Below are positions 1-32,231 of a DNA stretch of 64,000 nt, in pieces. Each line of letters opens with the position of its first letter. Position 1 is the first letter of the stretch. The position numbers and the translations under genes were made by a program. The notes below the pieces were generated by a model. That model was not told the origin of the DNA. It saw nothing but the letters and a program-made list of their open reading frames with translations, and made no database searches. The DNA is from Maribacter spongiicola (lineage in GTDB: Bacteria; Bacteroidota; Bacteroidia; Flavobacteriales; Flavobacteriaceae): positions 1 to 64,000 of the forward strand of contig NZ_SOAY01000012.1 in NCBI RefSeq assembly GCF_004364165.1, in the 5' to 3' direction.

Positions 1-47
1 TCTCGATTCCCCGGCTTCGTTTCCCTTAGGTGTTTCCCTAAGCGGCT

Positions 48-24431: not shown

Positions 24432-24579
24432 AATCGACTAATTCAGAAATGAAAAAATGTTTATTCCTACTTAATAGACGCCTTTCTCTAGTCTTTGTTA
24501 CAATTAGCCTTAAGAAATTATTAACTATTTGTTCCAGATATTATTTCAATCTTTGAAAGATTACCAAACTAACTCACAA

Positions 24580-27069
24580 ATGAAAAGAAAATTACTTGTA
24601 AAATTATTGCTATTTGTTTGCGTTTTTGGCTACCAAAATGCCGAAGCCCAAATTTTTAAAAAGAAGAAAAAAGATACTGAACAGGAAGCCAGTAAATCAT
24701 CAAAAGACAAAATTCAGCCTTATAATAAGGTTATTACAAAAGACGCCGTTAGTGATGCCGGACTTTTTACTACTCACATAGTTGACGAGAATCATTATTT
24801 TGAAATTCCCGACTCATTATTCAACAAAGAAATGTTGATGGTAAGCCGTATTTCTAAAACTGCCTCAGGTATTGGTTTTGGTGGCGGAAAAATTAATACC
24901 CAGGTTCTACGATGGGAAAAGAAAGATAAGAAGGTACTACTCCGTGTGGTTTCTCATGATGTAGTTGCGGCAGATTCTTTACCCGTGCACGAAGCCGTTC
25001 TAAACTCGAATTTTGAGCCTGTACTATTTTCGTTTGATATTAAGGCGGTGCAAAAAGATTCTTTAAACCCGACTACGGTTATTGAGGTCAATGATATTTT
25101 TATGAAAGACACAAAAGCTTTTGGCATGCCAGAACAGTACCGCAAGCGCTATAAGGTGTCTCGTTTAGATGAAGGCAGAGGGTATATTGAATCGATCAAG
25201 AGTTACCCTTTAAACGTAGAAATACGTCACATTAAAACATATTTAGCAAGTGCCGCACCTAGCAACCAAAGTTTGGGTTCTATATCAGTAGAAATCAATA
25301 ACTCTATGGTATTGCTACCTGAAGAACAAATGAAACGCCGTTATTTTGACGAACGTGTTGGTTGGTTTGCTCGTGGTCAAGTAGATTACGGATTAGAAGC
25401 GCAAGAGAGCAAGACCATCAAATTTTTAGATAGATGGCGTTTAGAGGTAAAAGATGAAGATGCCGAAAAATTCAAGAATGGCGAATTAGTTGAGCCTAAA
25501 AAACAAATTATCTATTATGTAGATAGGGCTACACCTAAAAAATGGGTGCCTTTTATTAAACAAGGTATTGAAGATTGGCAAATTGCTTTTGAAGCTGCAG
25601 GTTTTAAAAATGCGATTATTGCCAAAGAAGCTCCGACTGAAGAAGAAGATCCAGAATGGTCTCCTGAAGATGTACGCTATTCTGTAGTGCGCTATTTAGC
25701 TTCACCCATACCAAATGCAAACGGACCACATGTTAGTGATCCCCGTAGTGGTGAAATATTAGAGTCTGATATCAATTGGTACCATAATGTAATGACCTTA
25801 TTAAGAAACTGGTACTTTGTGCAAACTGCAGCTATTAACCCGGCAGCTAGGGGCGTTTCTTTCGATGATGATGTTATGGGTCGCTTAATCCGTTTTGTAT
25901 CGTCTCATGAAGTTGGGCATACTTTAGGTTTACCGCACAACATGGGTAGTAGTGTCGCATATCCTGTAGATTCGCTTCGTTCTAAAACCTTTACAAAGAA
26001 ATACGGCACCGCTCCGTCGATTATGGATTATGCCCGTTTCAACTATATAGCACAACCTGGTGACGAAGGAGTGGCATTAATGCCAGATATCGGTGTTTAC
26101 GATAAGTATGCTATTCAATGGGGATATAAGCCTATACCGAATACCACTGCAGAAGAAGAAAAATCTATATTAGATAAATGGATCATGGCACATGCAGGTG
26201 ATTCTTTATATCGCTTTGGACACCAACAGGTAGGTGATATCGTTGATCCAAGCTCACAAACTGAAGATTTAGGTGATGATGCCATGAAAGCTGGCGAATA
26301 CGGTATTGCCAACTTAAAGAGGATTGTCCCGAAATTAATTGAGTGGACAGCCGAAGATGGTAAGACTTATGAAGATTTAGATAAGTTATACGGACAAGTA
26401 TTCTCTCAATTCAACCGATACATGGGTCATGTCTCTAATAACATTGGTGGAGTCTACGAAAACCACAAAACTTATGATCAAGAAGGTGCTGTTTATACCG
26501 CTGTACCTAAAGAGAAACAACAAAGAGCAATGGCTTTTCTGCATGAACAACTTTTTGAAACACCAATGTGGATGCTGGATCAAGATATTTTGGAGCGCAC
26601 AGAGTACTCCGGTTTCTTAGAGCAAATGCGTTCTATGCAAGTACGTACATTAAACAATGTATTAAGCTTAGGCAAAATGGCACGATTAATAGAAAATGCA
26701 ACTATTGATAAGTCTGAAGCTTATTCTCTTGTCCAAATGATGAGTGAATTAAGGAAAGGAATTTGGTCCGAAGCTAAAAACGGAAAGTCTGTGGATACCT
26801 ATAGAAGAAACTTGCAAAAAGCCCACATTGATCGCTTAGCATATTTATTAACCGTAGAAAATCAAGCCAAAGCATCCGATTTCGGTGGCTACAGAAAATC
26901 AACAGTTGTCAACACTAGCCAATCTGATATTAGGACTATTGCAAGAGCAGAACTGAACATATTAAAGCGAGATATTGGAAATGCACGTAATAGAACCCCT
27001 GATATGATGACAAAATATCATTACGACGATGTTATTGAACGTATTAACGTCATTCTTGACCCTAAATAA
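24580..27069 (+). CDS. Zinc-dependent metzincin-like metalloprotease (DUF5117/DUF5118 type)
   Basis: I chose the ATG at 24580 (829 residues) because it opens the signal peptide MKRKLLVKLLLFVCVFGYQ; the upstream start at 24529 would put 17 odd residues before it. A basic KKKKKD stretch follows the signal. The zinc motif HEVGHTLGLPHN, an HEXXHXXGXXH metzincin site, is near residue 443, with SIMDYARFNY downstream as probable Met-turn. The layout matches the large Bacteroidota zinc-dependent metalloprotease family with DUF5118, DUF5117 and a C-terminal catalytic extension. Likely periplasmic or outer-membrane associated. Substrate unknown. Confidence 0.85.
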   Translation: MKRKLLVKLLLFVCVFGYQNAEAQIFKKKKKDTEQEASKSSKDKIQPYNKVITKDAVSDAGLFTTHIVDENHYFEIPDSLFNKEMLMVSRISKTASGIGFGGGKINTQVLRWEKKDKKVLLRVVSHDVVAADSLPVHEAVLNSNFEPVLFSFDIKAVQKDSLNPTTVIEVNDIFMKDTKAFGMPEQYRKRYKVSRLDEGRGYIESIKSYPLNVEIRHIKTYLASAAPSNQSLGSISVEINNSMVLLPEEQMKRRYFDERVGWFARGQVDYGLEAQESKTIKFLDRWRLEVKDEDAEKFKNGELVEPKKQIIYYVDRATPKKWVPFIKQGIEDWQIAFEAAGFKNAIIAKEAPTEEEDPEWSPEDVRYSVVRYLASPIPNANGPHVSDPRSGEILESDINWYHNVMTLLRNWYFVQTAAINPAARGVSFDDDVMGRLIRFVSSHEVGHTLGLPHNMGSSVAYPVDSLRSKTFTKKYGTAPSIMDYARFNYIAQPGDEGVALMPDIGVYDKYAIQWGYKPIPNTTAEEEKSILDKWIMAHAGDSLYRFGHQQVGDIVDPSSQTEDLGDDAMKAGEYGIANLKRIVPKLIEWTAEDGKTYEDLDKLYGQVFSQFNRYMGHVSNNIGGVYENHKTYDQEGAVYTAVPKEKQQRAMAFLHEQLFETPMWMLDQDILERTEYSGFLEQMRSMQVRTLNNVLSLGKMARLIENATIDKSEAYSLVQMMSELRKGIWSEAKNGKSVDTYRRNLQKAHIDRLAYLLTVENQAKASDFGGYRKSTVVNTSQSDIRTIARAELNILKRDIGNARNRTPDMMTKYHYDDVIERINVILDPK

Positions 27070-28047: not shown

Positions 28048-28068
28048 AATCAAATTTTACATAAATAA

Positions 28069-28097
28069 AAAAGACCTGCTTTTAGCAGGTCTTTTTT
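28069..28097 (+). terminator. Terminator after the Spy/CpxP-like gene
   Basis: A perfect stem AAGACCTGCT/AGCAGGTCTT (28071-28080 with 28084-28093) with loop TTT and six T at the 3' side. Confidence 0.93.
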
Positions 28098-28301: not shown

Positions 28302-31300
28302 ATGATATCAAAAAAAATAGGTTATTTATTACTTCTTATAGCCTTTAGCTTATTGACCAGTTGTCAACAAGAACTATACAAGTCTAACAACAAGTTTAAT
28401 ATTCCTGAAAAGAGTACTGAAGAACCTCTTGTTCAGTTTTTAATAGAGCCTACAAATTATAGCGCTATTCTTGAAACAGAGAATTTGGCAAAGGCTTTTG
28501 ACTATTCTAAAATTGCGCACAAAACTTTATGGGTCAATCAATTCAACGAGAAACTTAATATTGCACCTACTACGAGGGTTGTAACGGTCCACGAAACTGC
28601 AGGACTAAGTACTATTGCCATAGACAGTCTTTTAAAGTTTGTTTCTAAAGGCGGAACCTTATTCGTTACCAAAGCTGCCAAAGATGAGCGTATGTCGTAC
28701 TTTTTTGGAATGACACCTGGTGCTGACTGGAGCACGAACAAAGAAGCTTCTGGTCTATTCTTTAATAAAGCGCTTTTTCCGGGTATGCAAGGGCGTGGTT
28801 TTGATAATAAAACAGTTCACCTAGGTTTTGACGGAGCTAACTTTTCTAGCAACGTAAATGTTTTAGTAGCGGCGCATAATAGTAAAGAATATCCTGTTTT
28901 AATTGAAAATAGAATAGGTAACGGAAAAGTTATTCTTTACAACTCATCACAAATTCTTAAAAAAGAAATGAGAGGTCTTTTATTTTCCGCAAGTTTATTA
29001 GGGCTTGAAGGTATTCCTTATCCTATTGCAAATATTGGAACATTATTTCTTGACGATTTTCCATCTTCCATGTACGATGATAACGGCAAAGCGATCAACG
29101 TACAAAAAGGTATCAGCAAATCTGAGATGCTAAAGGCTGACTGGTGGCCAAAAATGAAAAAACTAGCTCAAGAAGAAGATATTAAGTACTCTGCCTACGT
29201 AACTTTTAATGCCAATGAAAAAAATACCGGAGACCCCAATTATAAAAGCTGGGATCAAACTGGCTTATTAGACGGTAAAAATGATAACGGTACCAATAAA
29301 TGGTTAACAAATGAATTTACCAATAGAGGTCATGAACTTGGCTTTCGTGGTTACAACGACTTACCGCTTTCAAAAAAATTATGGGAAGACACGGATCTTA
29401 TTTTAGACAACGCAAAAGCTTCTGCCAATAAATGGGAAGATAATGTTTCAAAAACATTGCCCAACTCTTATGTTGCTCCAGACAATCAAATAGATAGTCT
29501 AGGCCTTATAGCGCTAAAGAAAGGGTTTCCTAGCTTAAACTTTTTACACACTTCATTTTTAGGAGATGTTTATGAAGGTGGTAATAGAGAGTTTGATCCT
29601 GACCCACTAAACAACCGCTTTTTTGATTACCCGCGTTTAAGTAGCGGCTATACCATTTCACAGAAAGAACAATGGGCAATAGAATCTACATACCTGTATA
29701 CCGGTATTTGGTCTCATGTATTAAATACTAATGATGTTTTAAAAATCGGTAGCACATCAAATGCTATTGGTGAATTAAAAAAACACATTGTTGATTACAA
29801 AAAAAGGCACCCATATATGAAGTTTTTAACTGCCAAACAATCTACAGAGGCAGCAATGGACTGGCGTTACCAAAGCATCCGCCATTTAAGCTACGAAGGG
29901 CAATATGAAGTTTCAAGTTCATTAAATACCGATGAAAAAAAAGACTCGTATTGGCTCATGTATGTTGAAGAACATAACAATGTTAAAGTACATGAAAAAC
30001 TATTCTTTGATCAGGTCGAATTCTCTTCGGTTCCTTTACTAAACGGTTTTCTTTATAGTATTAAAACGAATACGCCGAATATTAGCGTACCAGATATTCG
30101 TCCAGAAATAAGAACTCTTATAGGCACCACCTCAACGTTGATTACCAACACCAAAAGCGACTACAAATCTTATAATAAAAGCAAACAGACTATGGTACCA
30201 CTCAAGCAAAAAATCGACAGATTGGTTGTGGAGGAAAAAACAGAAGAGGCAACAAACTTAATGGAGAAATTATTCAAGGATAACAAATTCATCAACTCTC
30301 AACTGATAGTCAGCTATGCAGAGGGAATGGAAAAGCAAGGGAAAACAAAACAGCTATGGTCTCAATTAAACAGTCTATACTTAAAAAACCCTTCTAGTTC
30401 TTATGCTAATTTCTCTAGAGACATTAGTACCGTAAGTAATTACCCTTCACCCGCAGTTAAAAAAATGTGGATGGAAAGACAAATGGAATGGGGTCAAAAT
30501 GACGTTAACATATTAAAGGATTATTACCTGAACTTTAATACCGAAGACAATTCTAAAATTATAGAACAAGTTTTAGAAGTGATGTACACTTTAAAGCCTA
30601 CCGAGAATAACAAATTGACCTATTACGAATTTCTAGTAAAATCCAATCACGAGGATTTGTTGAAGAAACTTGATGCTATTGAACCTTGTAGTATTTCTAA
30701 CAAAGATTTAGCTACATCAATTAGCCAAGTGTATGCCGAAAAATTAAATTTTGAAACGGCTGAACTATGGCAAAAATGTGGAAATATTTCTGCTGAAGTA
30801 GTCAAAGAATGGAAAGAAAAAACGAAGACTATAGCAAGTAAGAAGTTTACAGATTTCGAATATTATACAAGATACTTATTGGTTAATGACCCAAATAAGG
30901 CAGTCGAAGAATTACAAGATATTGAACCTTGTAGACCTGATCTAATACGATTATCTAAAAACATCGCCTTATTATTCGCTGAATATGCACAATACCAAAA
31001 GGCATTAGACTGGAGCACTTGTACGAATACTATACCCATTGCAAAATTGCTAGACTGGAATTTAGAATTTGCCAATGGCAGGTATTTAAAGAAAGTTTAT
31101 GCGAACCATATAGAAAAAAATCCTAGAGATTACAATACCATGAACCACATGGTGAAGTTGCTCTTATTAAAAGGTGATGTCAATGCTGCTGGTGAAATTG
31201 CCGTTAACATACCACCTTCTAAAATTGATCCCGATTTTAAAATTGCATTTAATAATGAGGTGAAAGCAACATCTGACGAAAAGCAATCTTTATACATTAG

Positions 31301-32231
31301 TAAGTTTAAAATATTAATGGATGATGCCATTGTAAAAAAATCAGAGGTTGAAGCAAGAAAAAAGAAAGGGCACTCTATAGGGCTTACCTCAACGGCAATA
31401 GCAGATGAATTTAACCCAACATTGTTTAATAATGCATTTCATTTTGGTTTTTATAATAAGAAATTAGATTTTCACCAGTTCTCAATTGTTCAAGGTACAG
31501 CATATACTATTTTAAAAGATACGATAATACCTAATGATATTGGTAGAGATTTACTAGGTATGGAATATATTTATAAAAAAGAATCTGACCAAAAAAACCC
31601 TATTTATGTAGGTGCAAGAGTTGAGATGGACAACTTTAATAAAGTATTTTTCCATTTTAAATCTGGTATAGATTTCGTTGGTGACACTAGTAAATCTTCT
31701 TTAGCATTAAAAGCCAACCCAGTAACAACTGGTCCGGGGTATAATTTAAACATTTACGACATACAAGTAAAAGCTAAACAAGAGTTTGAATACTCATCTA
31801 ATTTAAACCATGAATTCTATGTAAAAGCAGATTACTATACCGATAGTCAATACTATGCCATTGGTGGTACGCGCGTAGAATACAATCTACTGAACTTAGA
31901 CACATTTAAACTAGGACCGTTAGTTGAAGGAGCTTACGGTGTAGGCTCTGAAGATAGACGAAACGGTTTCCCATACTGGTTGACCGAAGACAGACTTTTT
32001 GCCGGTGGCGGATTGCAATTTCAACTTGGTAATGATGATTCTGATTTTAACCTTAAGAGTGATTTCTCTCTTTTTGCCGAGCAAGACGAAGACAGATTTC
32101 AACGTTATGAAGGTGAATTGTCATACAGAATTAAAAACTTCACTACTATCAACTTAAACTACTCGTACTTTACAATTGATCAGTTTTTCTCAAATGCTGT
32201 TCAACTAGGTATTCAATATAATTTTAAATAG
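28302..32231 (+). CDS. Outer-membrane lipoprotein: DUF2194 deacetylase-like, TPR and beta-barrel modules in one chain
   Basis: The 1309-residue product has lipobox SLLTSC (Cys21). Residues about 40-235 look like a class I glutamine-amidotransferase-like fold. Residues about 240-590 resemble DUF2194/polysaccharide deacetylases: LFLDDFPSSMY (near 246), RGHELGFRGYNDL (near 341) and SYVAPDNQID (near 388). Residues about 600-1010 are TPR-like helices, including two matching units with IEPC (near 792 and 873) and a second Cys 30-40 residues later (WQKC, WSTC). About 1040-1309 is barrel-like beta sequence ending in GIQYNFK. PelA/PelB and PgaB/PgaA split similar functions over two proteins, so this may deacetylate and export a polysaccharide (inference). 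No glycosyltransferase gene is adjacent. A terminator follows. Confidence 0.65.
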   Translation: MISKKIGYLLLLIAFSLLTSCQQELYKSNNKFNIPEKSTEEPLVQFLIEPTNYSAILETENLAKAFDYSKIAHKTLWVNQFNEKLNIAPTTRVVTVHETAGLSTIAIDSLLKFVSKGGTLFVTKAAKDERMSYFFGMTPGADWSTNKEASGLFFNKALFPGMQGRGFDNKTVHLGFDGANFSSNVNVLVAAHNSKEYPVLIENRIGNGKVILYNSSQILKKEMRGLLFSASLLGLEGIPYPIANIGTLFLDDFPSSMYDDNGKAINVQKGISKSEMLKADWWPKMKKLAQEEDIKYSAYVTFNANEKNTGDPNYKSWDQTGLLDGKNDNGTNKWLTNEFTNRGHELGFRGYNDLPLSKKLWEDTDLILDNAKASANKWEDNVSKTLPNSYVAPDNQIDSLGLIALKKGFPSLNFLHTSFLGDVYEGGNREFDPDPLNNRFFDYPRLSSGYTISQKEQWAIESTYLYTGIWSHVLNTNDVLKIGSTSNAIGELKKHIVDYKKRHPYMKFLTAKQSTEAAMDWRYQSIRHLSYEGQYEVSSSLNTDEKKDSYWLMYVEEHNNVKVHEKLFFDQVEFSSVPLLNGFLYSIKTNTPNISVPDIRPEIRTLIGTTSTLITNTKSDYKSYNKSKQTMVPLKQKIDRLVVEEKTEEATNLMEKLFKDNKFINSQLIVSYAEGMEKQGKTKQLWSQLNSLYLKNPSSSYANFSRDISTVSNYPSPAVKKMWMERQMEWGQNDVNILKDYYLNFNTEDNSKIIEQVLEVMYTLKPTENNKLTYYEFLVKSNHEDLLKKLDAIEPCSISNKDLATSISQVYAEKLNFETAELWQKCGNISAEVVKEWKEKTKTIASKKFTDFEYYTRYLLVNDPNKAVEELQDIEPCRPDLIRLSKNIALLFAEYAQYQKALDWSTCTNTIPIAKLLDWNLEFANGRYLKKVYANHIEKNPRDYNTMNHMVKLLLLKGDVNAAGEIAVNIPPSKIDPDFKIAFNNEVKATSDEKQSLYISKFKILMDDAIVKKSEVEARKKKGHSIGLTSTAIADEFNPTLFNNAFHFGFYNKKLDFHQFSIVQGTAYTILKDTIIPNDIGRDLLGMEYIYKKESDQKNPIYVGARVEMDNFNKVFFHFKSGIDFVGDTSKSSLALKANPVTTGPGYNLNIYDIQVKAKQEFEYSSNLNHEFYVKADYYTDSQYYAIGGTRVEYNLLNLDTFKLGPLVEGAYGVGSEDRRNGFPYWLTEDRLFAGGGLQFQLGNDDSDFNLKSDFSLFAEQDEDRFQRYEGELSYRIKNFTTINLNYSYFTIDQFFSNAVQLGIQYNFK

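Follow-up and report, generated by a model that had tools for sequence, protein, structure and literature searches.

The locus analysed here raises the question of what a single protein might do that joins deacetylase-like, tetratricopeptide repeat (TPR) and barrel-like parts, usually found in separate polysaccharide secretion proteins, in one chain. It lies in Maribacter spongiicola (Flavobacteriaceae, Bacteroidota), in the first 64,000 nucleotides of contig NZ_SOAY01000012.1 (assembly GCF_004364165.1; hereafter the window), where a 1309-codon frame free of stops occupies positions 28302..32231 of the forward strand, as verified for strand and coordinates. All window features given below are on this strand. 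An earlier note on this DNA had taken the encoded lipoprotein for a self-contained polysaccharide modification and export device with its partner synthase elsewhere in the genome. From the open reading frame (ORF), its DUF2194 match and its homology to the solved structure 9ZAU, we predict that the gene encodes a fused Pel-type exporter, a 1309-residue lipoprotein with pseudo-deacetylase, TPR-like and barrel-like parts, and we give a probability of about 0.6 to the reading that this Pel-type protein has been exapted to pass or hold a glycan at the outer membrane.

As the earlier note had proposed, the N-terminal part belongs to DUF2194 (PF09960), whose profile matches residues 29–556 with E 6e-47 and 160.7 bits, against a curated cut-off of 30.4; an NCBIfam scan of the protein gave no match. 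In a phmmer search of solved structures, the sole relative by sequence is 9ZAU, which matches residues 60–522 (E 2e-37). This is the structure of PelADA from Bacillus cereus, the protein with which the carbohydrate esterase (CE) family CE26 and the carbohydrate-binding module (CBM) family CBM114 were founded (PMC13254593, cited here and below from excerpts of the report). The window protein has the same two domains in the same order: a CBM114-like alpha/beta/alpha domain at residues ~41–243 (28422..29030) and a CE26-like esterase domain at residues ~244–520 (29031..29861), the latter predicted to be inactive. In PelADA, zinc is held by D263, H350, H354 and H488, D262 is the base and H488 the catalytic acid, and free amines were undetectable in mutants of H350, H354 and H488 (PMC13254593).

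We compared this site across 60 related genomes (36 of the genus), a family sample of 397 genomes and a phylum sample of 395. The window type was seen only in Maribacter, in 15 of the 36 genus genomes (13 copies full length and open, one with three stops, G015, and one cut by a contig end, G020). By alignment to 9ZAU, D262 and D263 correspond to the retained Asp251 and Asp252 (29052..29057), H350 and H354 to Arg349 and Asp353, the ends of an RGYND motif (residues 349–353, 29346..29360) that replaces the metal motif HGYNH, and H488 to Asn475 (29724..29726). Of the Asp, His, His metal ligands of CE26, Asp252 is thus retained and both histidines are replaced, and the catalytic acid is replaced as well. 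RG[YF]ND, with both metal histidines substituted by Arg and Asp, is found in 15/15 clade copies, whereas all 41 other copies, including those in Maribacter operons described below (4/4), the family (14/14) and the phylum (23/23), carry HG[YFQ]NH; G015 and G020 are included in the first count and G259, also cut by a contig end, in the family count. At the acid position, the 15 clade copies have N (13), S (1) or H (1), so that the histidine is lost in 14/15. A loop of ~25 residues that follows residue 488 beside the active site is missing in the clade, and the place of D490 is taken by five different residues among 13 clade copies. The base and its partner (D262 with R458 in PelADA) are preserved as Asp251 and Arg445 in 13/13 clade copies, and Pro393 of the site is also retained in the window protein. 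The window protein is very probably related to the Pel fusion but inactive as an enzyme. With neither metal-binding histidine and no catalytic acid left in its sequence, the window copy would not be a modification device, and that half of the earlier proposal is not supported; a metal site in the DUF2194 part, the absence of which the earlier note had itself named as decisive, is missing by comparison with the solved relative.

The relatives link the fusion to Pel. A second fusion type is present in 4/60 related genomes, with 35–47% identity to the window type over matched stretches, and in 4/4 of these Maribacter genomes it terminates the gene run GH114–pelF–pelG–GH114–659-aa protein–fusion. 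In one genome, G032, the genes were labelled by Pfam and NCBIfam matches, and in the other three by agreement in size and order and by searches; in G032, PelF is clear (NCBIfam E 1e-50, 173 bits, cut-off 100) and PelG is weak (Pfam E 8e-6, 25.5 bits, cut-off 29), being the sole Pfam match of that protein. The fusion occurs in 17/397 genomes of the family sample, 14 of them outside Maribacter, and the phylum sample gave a match in 27/395 genomes, many over the DUF2194 half only. A barrel-profile match at E <= 1e-5 was obtained in 12 of the 23 phylum loci not previously found, most of which are cut before the gene end, and in five of the six complete phylum copies, the exception being G679. Outside the genus, a homologue of the 659-aa protein lies directly upstream of the fusion in 36/37 loci, again with the exception of G679, where GH114 is absent and the fusion follows two other genes. 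In 17 of those 37 loci, longer regions were fetched from other genera: pelF and pelG homologues are present in 17/17, and the order pelF–pelG–GH114–659–fusion is found in 16/17. These regions and their conserved order indicate that the fusion stands where Pseudomonas aeruginosa has PelA and PelB, and that a single-chain deacetylase–TPR–barrel protein occupies the place of both. The earlier note had thus rightly seen a polysaccharide-export-type chain fusing usually separate roles, and the search it called for, of the same fusion in other Bacteroidota with co-occurring synthase genes, was successful.

In excerpts on P. aeruginosa, PelA interacts with the TPRs of PelB, and Pel passes the 16-strand PelB barrel (PMC12022489, PMC12141448). 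The roles are alike by analogy, in two proteins there and in one chain here; PelA of P. aeruginosa is a CE21 enzyme (PMC13254593) and also a hydrolase, whereas the window protein is CE26-like. PelADA has a membrane helix, whereas the window protein is a lipoprotein with added TPR-like and barrel-like parts, lacks the equivalents of H350, H354 and H488 and comes from a genome in which no Pel genes were found. The fusions in Bacteroidota pel operons (L048–L051, L055–L067, L069 and others) are full-length homologues of the same architecture, and within the family they have the same four TPR cysteines as the window protein, but they keep the metal site and adjoin pelF and pelG, and the window clade has neither. 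PgaB and PgaA of the poly-N-acetylglucosamine (PNAG) system, a pair mentioned in PMC12022489, show the same division of labour between deacetylase and exporter parts. Their deacetylase family differs from DUF2194/CE26, and the neighbourhood of the relatives is pel, not pga. Since pelF and pelG adjoin the fusion in relatives, a PNAG, alginate or cellulose reading was dropped; of the two comparisons drawn in the earlier note, the Pel pair is closer than the PNAG pair. The open-access literature searched describes no fused deacetylase–TPR–barrel Pel protein and no Bacteroidota pel operon, a silence that is weak evidence of novelty. An excerpt on Fusobacterium nucleatum reports that a DUF2194 gene and pelF/pelG are co-downregulated (PMC9848294).

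The window copy itself stands apart from Pel genes. None of the searched pel-type genes is present in the 64-kb window, in line with the earlier remark that no glycosyltransferases adjoin the gene. In the genome of the window (18 contigs, rated 100% complete) there is no match to PelF, none to PelG by Pfam or with the Maribacter PelG query, and none to the 659-aa operon protein or GH114, which speaks against a partner synthase of this kind elsewhere in the genome. Among the 60 genomes, only the four that bear the operon copy have the Maribacter PelG and the 659-aa protein. The place of the window type is shared between genomes: in the three gene-bearing relatives compared (L052, L028 and L032) the upstream genes and the downstream aminotransferase gene are the same as in the window, and a small DoxX-like gene in between is missing in two of them. 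In G025, a single contig carries both fusion types, one with the metal motif and one without, at a distance of over 1 Mb. On its sequence, the window gene is paralogous to the gene for the fused exporter at the end of Bacteroidota pel operons. Remnants of the orphan gene are found at the syntenic place in G019 and G014 (L053:8328-9470, L054:9182-9358). GH114 was considered as a partner and rejected: non-operon GH114 accompanies the clade gene in 8/15 genomes, the window's not among them, and it also occurs without the clade gene, in G008 and G036.

The changes in the clade are concentrated in the esterase domain. Leaving out G015 (stops) and G020 and G259 (contig-end cuts), as was done for the tree, invariant-position and Fisher counts, we took the positions invariant in 17 operon copies and asked how many are changed in the 13 intact clade copies: 24/59 in the CE domain, 0/18 in the CBM, 1/5 in the beta-rich part, 1/12 in the TPR part and 3/20 in the barrel part. 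The contrast between the CE domain (24/59) and elsewhere (5/55) gives a Fisher p of 1e-4; note that the rows are related and that the value describes one stem branch. In the tree, a branch supported at 100/100 separates the clade from the other copies; this stem measures 0.9 changes per column, and the branches within the clade are short. The ratio of nonsynonymous to synonymous changes (dN/dS), calculated between the window and 8 of the 12 other full-length clade copies, is 0.036–0.070 in 7/8 pairs, the eighth being saturated, at dS from 0.5 to over 3; dS above 1 makes individual ratios rough, and none is near 1. One pair of operon copies gave 0.146 for comparison. For the CE domain, dN/dS is 0.028–0.056 in 5/8 pairs, with three saturated. 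The gene is therefore under purifying selection in all its parts, including the dead domain. The dN of the CE domain is higher than that of the CBM in 8/8 pairs, higher than that of the barrel part in 5/8 and lower in 3/8, and lower than that of the TPR part in 7/8; the dead domain is thus constrained, though it is not the most tightly held part. From the long stem, the short inner branches and the low dN/dS, we read the history as that of a protein which changed fast once, lost catalysis and was thereafter held.

Downstream of the esterase domain, residues ~601–1015 (30102..31346) are predicted to form a TPR-like helical solenoid. The AlphaFold model of residues 590–1309 has 25 helices until residue ~1021, with block values of the predicted local distance difference test (pLDDT) of 70–87 at about 730–839 and 850–909 and lower elsewhere, and Pfam TPR_14 was found at E <= 1 in 8 of the 18 family members scanned (best 4.5e-5), not in the window protein itself. 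The TPR helices of the earlier note are upheld by this model. Its two IEPC units with paired cysteines are confirmed in the sequence: Cys796/Cys826 (30687..30779) and Cys877/Cys907 (30930..31022), predicted to form two disulfides, are invariant in 18/18 aligned family members. The four cysteines were not seen at those places in 23 phylum-sample fusions, where the alignment is uncertain. The model supports a PelB-like arrangement, with a TPR arm preceding a barrel-like part. This C-terminal beta-rich part, residues ~1016–1309 (31347..32228), has beta-type hydropathy alternation with z 4.3 against shuffles, whereas the TPR part as a control gives z -0.9. From this alternation, its position and analogy, we consider that it is probably an outer-membrane barrel. 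At the other end of the chain, a lipoprotein signal peptide is read up to Cys21 of the lipobox LLTSC (28302..28364), and the lipobox cysteine is found in 14/15 clade copies, the remaining one being the G015 ORF interrupted by stops.

Taken together, the relatives suggest how the fusion would work and what the window copy would have become. In the operons, the fusion lipoprotein would receive the polymer from PelF/PelG; the CBM would bind it, the CE domain would de-N-acetylate it, and the polymer would be guided along the TPR solenoid and then out through the protein's own C-terminal barrel. By its sequence, the window copy descends from such a chain. In Maribacter it now occupies a constant chromosomal position of its own; the two metal histidines, the catalytic acid and the ~25-residue loop are gone, and the conduit would have been retained. 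Its CBM/CE groove may still bind glycan, and passage or holding of glycan at the outer membrane is the function that has probably been retained. In both B. cereus and P. aeruginosa, according to the excerpted report, no Pel was detected once the deacetylase was inactive (PMC13254593), so that a dead fusion is not expected to serve Pel, even with a synthase. The cargo would then be a polymer other than Pel without need for deacetylation, and its synthase may be of a non-Pel kind. The full scenario, in which Bacteroidota replaced PelA and PelB by one chain and a Maribacter duplicate, released from its Pel role and stripped of its enzyme chemistry, persisted on its own as an outer-membrane glycan conduit for some other polymer, is put forward tentatively, at somewhat less than even odds. 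According to the same report, it is unclear how Gram-negative bacteria couple Pel deacetylation to export (PMC13254593); a deacetylase, a TPR arm and a barrel fused in fixed order would offer this coupling in a single molecule, accessible to purification and structure determination. The copy in Maribacter, where the conduit seems to have outlasted the chemistry, would be a natural separation-of-function case, asking whether the conduit is useful without deacetylation. Proteins annotated as DUF2194 only would gain a likely role, plus a warning on activity.

Several results weigh against an exapted conduit or binder. The barrel, and hence membrane passage, is unproven: AlphaFold pLDDT is 21–34 across the C-terminal beta-rich part, the barrel-part profile has a single match among solved structures (E 2.5), which is not a solved barrel, and Pfam OMP_b-brl is found in 2/18 members (best E 0.011) and not in the window protein; the barrel of the earlier note has indirect support, from the alternation. 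No partner synthase was identified; the ten GT2-type matches in the window's genome include three longer GT2 proteins, and nothing links any of them to the fusion gene. The GT2 genes at C1:490938, C2:641290 and C3:283602 would be the first candidates. The gene is also dispensable in evolution, with 21/36 genus genomes (some incomplete) lacking a copy, two of them with remnants, and with three stops in the G015 copy of a draft assembly.

If the barrel is only a plugged anchor, the protein could be a glycan-binding outer-membrane lipoprotein without export, an adhesin or sensor in which the CBM and the dead CE groove hold a polysaccharide, the cell's own or algal. All 18 invariant CBM positions are retained, the CE domain keeps a low dN/dS in the pairs that can be read (5/8) despite the loss of catalysis, no inner-membrane partner is known after the negative genome searches for PelF, PelG and the 659-aa protein, and Maribacter has been studied for its carbohydrate-active enzymes (PMC8072126, an excerpt). 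The E115 contact of the PelADA CBM is retained in 13/13 clade copies vs 7/17 operon copies. However, the TPR and barrel parts are retained too (28/32 invariant positions) and are not obviously needed by an adhesin, and the CBM contacts W147 and D231 of PelADA are not retained in the window, nor are they conserved in the operon copies. We regard such a non-exporting binder as unlikely.

A relic in decay, left on its way out after the Pel system had gone, would account for the G014 and G019 remnants, the G015 stops, the absence from 21/36 genus genomes and a CE dN above that of the CBM (8/8) and often of the barrel (5/8). It sits poorly with dN/dS of 0.036–0.070 over such large dS, with a CE dN below that of the TPR part in 7/8 pairs, with 13 copies, including the window's, full length and open, and with a gene that is not at the operon's place, as the two distant types of G025 illustrate; we hold it to be improbable. 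Still less credit is due to a re-purposed enzyme, in which Arg349, Asp353 and the retained Asp pair form a different active site for other chemistry: Arg and Asp are fixed in 15/15 copies, beyond what free drift needs, but the acid position varies, five residues occupy the D490 place and the adjacent loop is gone. Least credible is the reading of the earlier note, an active deacetylase and exporter whose synthase lies at another locus of the same genome, which the fusion and operon logic of relatives and the retained Asp251, Asp252, Arg445 and Pro393 would favour, against the replaced histidines and acid and the failure to find PelF, PelG, GH114 or the 659-aa protein in the genome.

Other approaches to the C-terminal half were less informative. 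Structure prediction used each half with 8 close sequences and reached mean pLDDT of 29.7 and 47.2, values too low to read active-site geometry from the models. Against solved structures, the profile of this half retrieved designed pentatricopeptide repeat proteins (at best E 7e-10, where no stretch of the top chain exceeded 8 bits), then kinesin light chain TPRs and weaker matches, all set aside, and no PelB chain was among the Protein Data Bank matches of the C-terminal profiles. The mean net charge of the barrel part is -7.6 in the clade vs +2.8 in operon copies, but the ranges overlap (-11..-4 and -11..17), and a cargo change read from net charge was dropped.

Within the operons, the protein upstream of the fusion has 658–662 aa (L048:9009-10988 (-), L049:8281-10257, L050:8174-10162, L051:10401-12389 (-)); that of L048 matches nothing in Pfam or NCBIfam at E <= 0.1 and gives a weak DspB match (E 0.05) among solved structures. 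It may stand in for PelD/PelE. Four regions from other families (L117–L120) have a gene of 518–543 aa between pelG and the second GH114, and in G192 an extra 317-aa ORF (L110:11163-12116 (-)), located past the first GH114 gene, gives a PelG profile match with E 7e-39 and may stem from a partial duplication. Between G026 and G028, the TPR part of the fusion genes (L050/L051) has dS 0.08 vs about 0.2 in the other parts, as if exchanged by recombination. In the window, a terminator-like hairpin with a T run, seen by eye between the upstream gene and the fusion gene (28067..28097), suggests that the latter is a separate transcription unit. At 24529-27069, the window encodes a DUF5117/DUF4953 zinc-protease-like protein (E 8e-128) that is a conserved neighbour in 5/5 loci compared.

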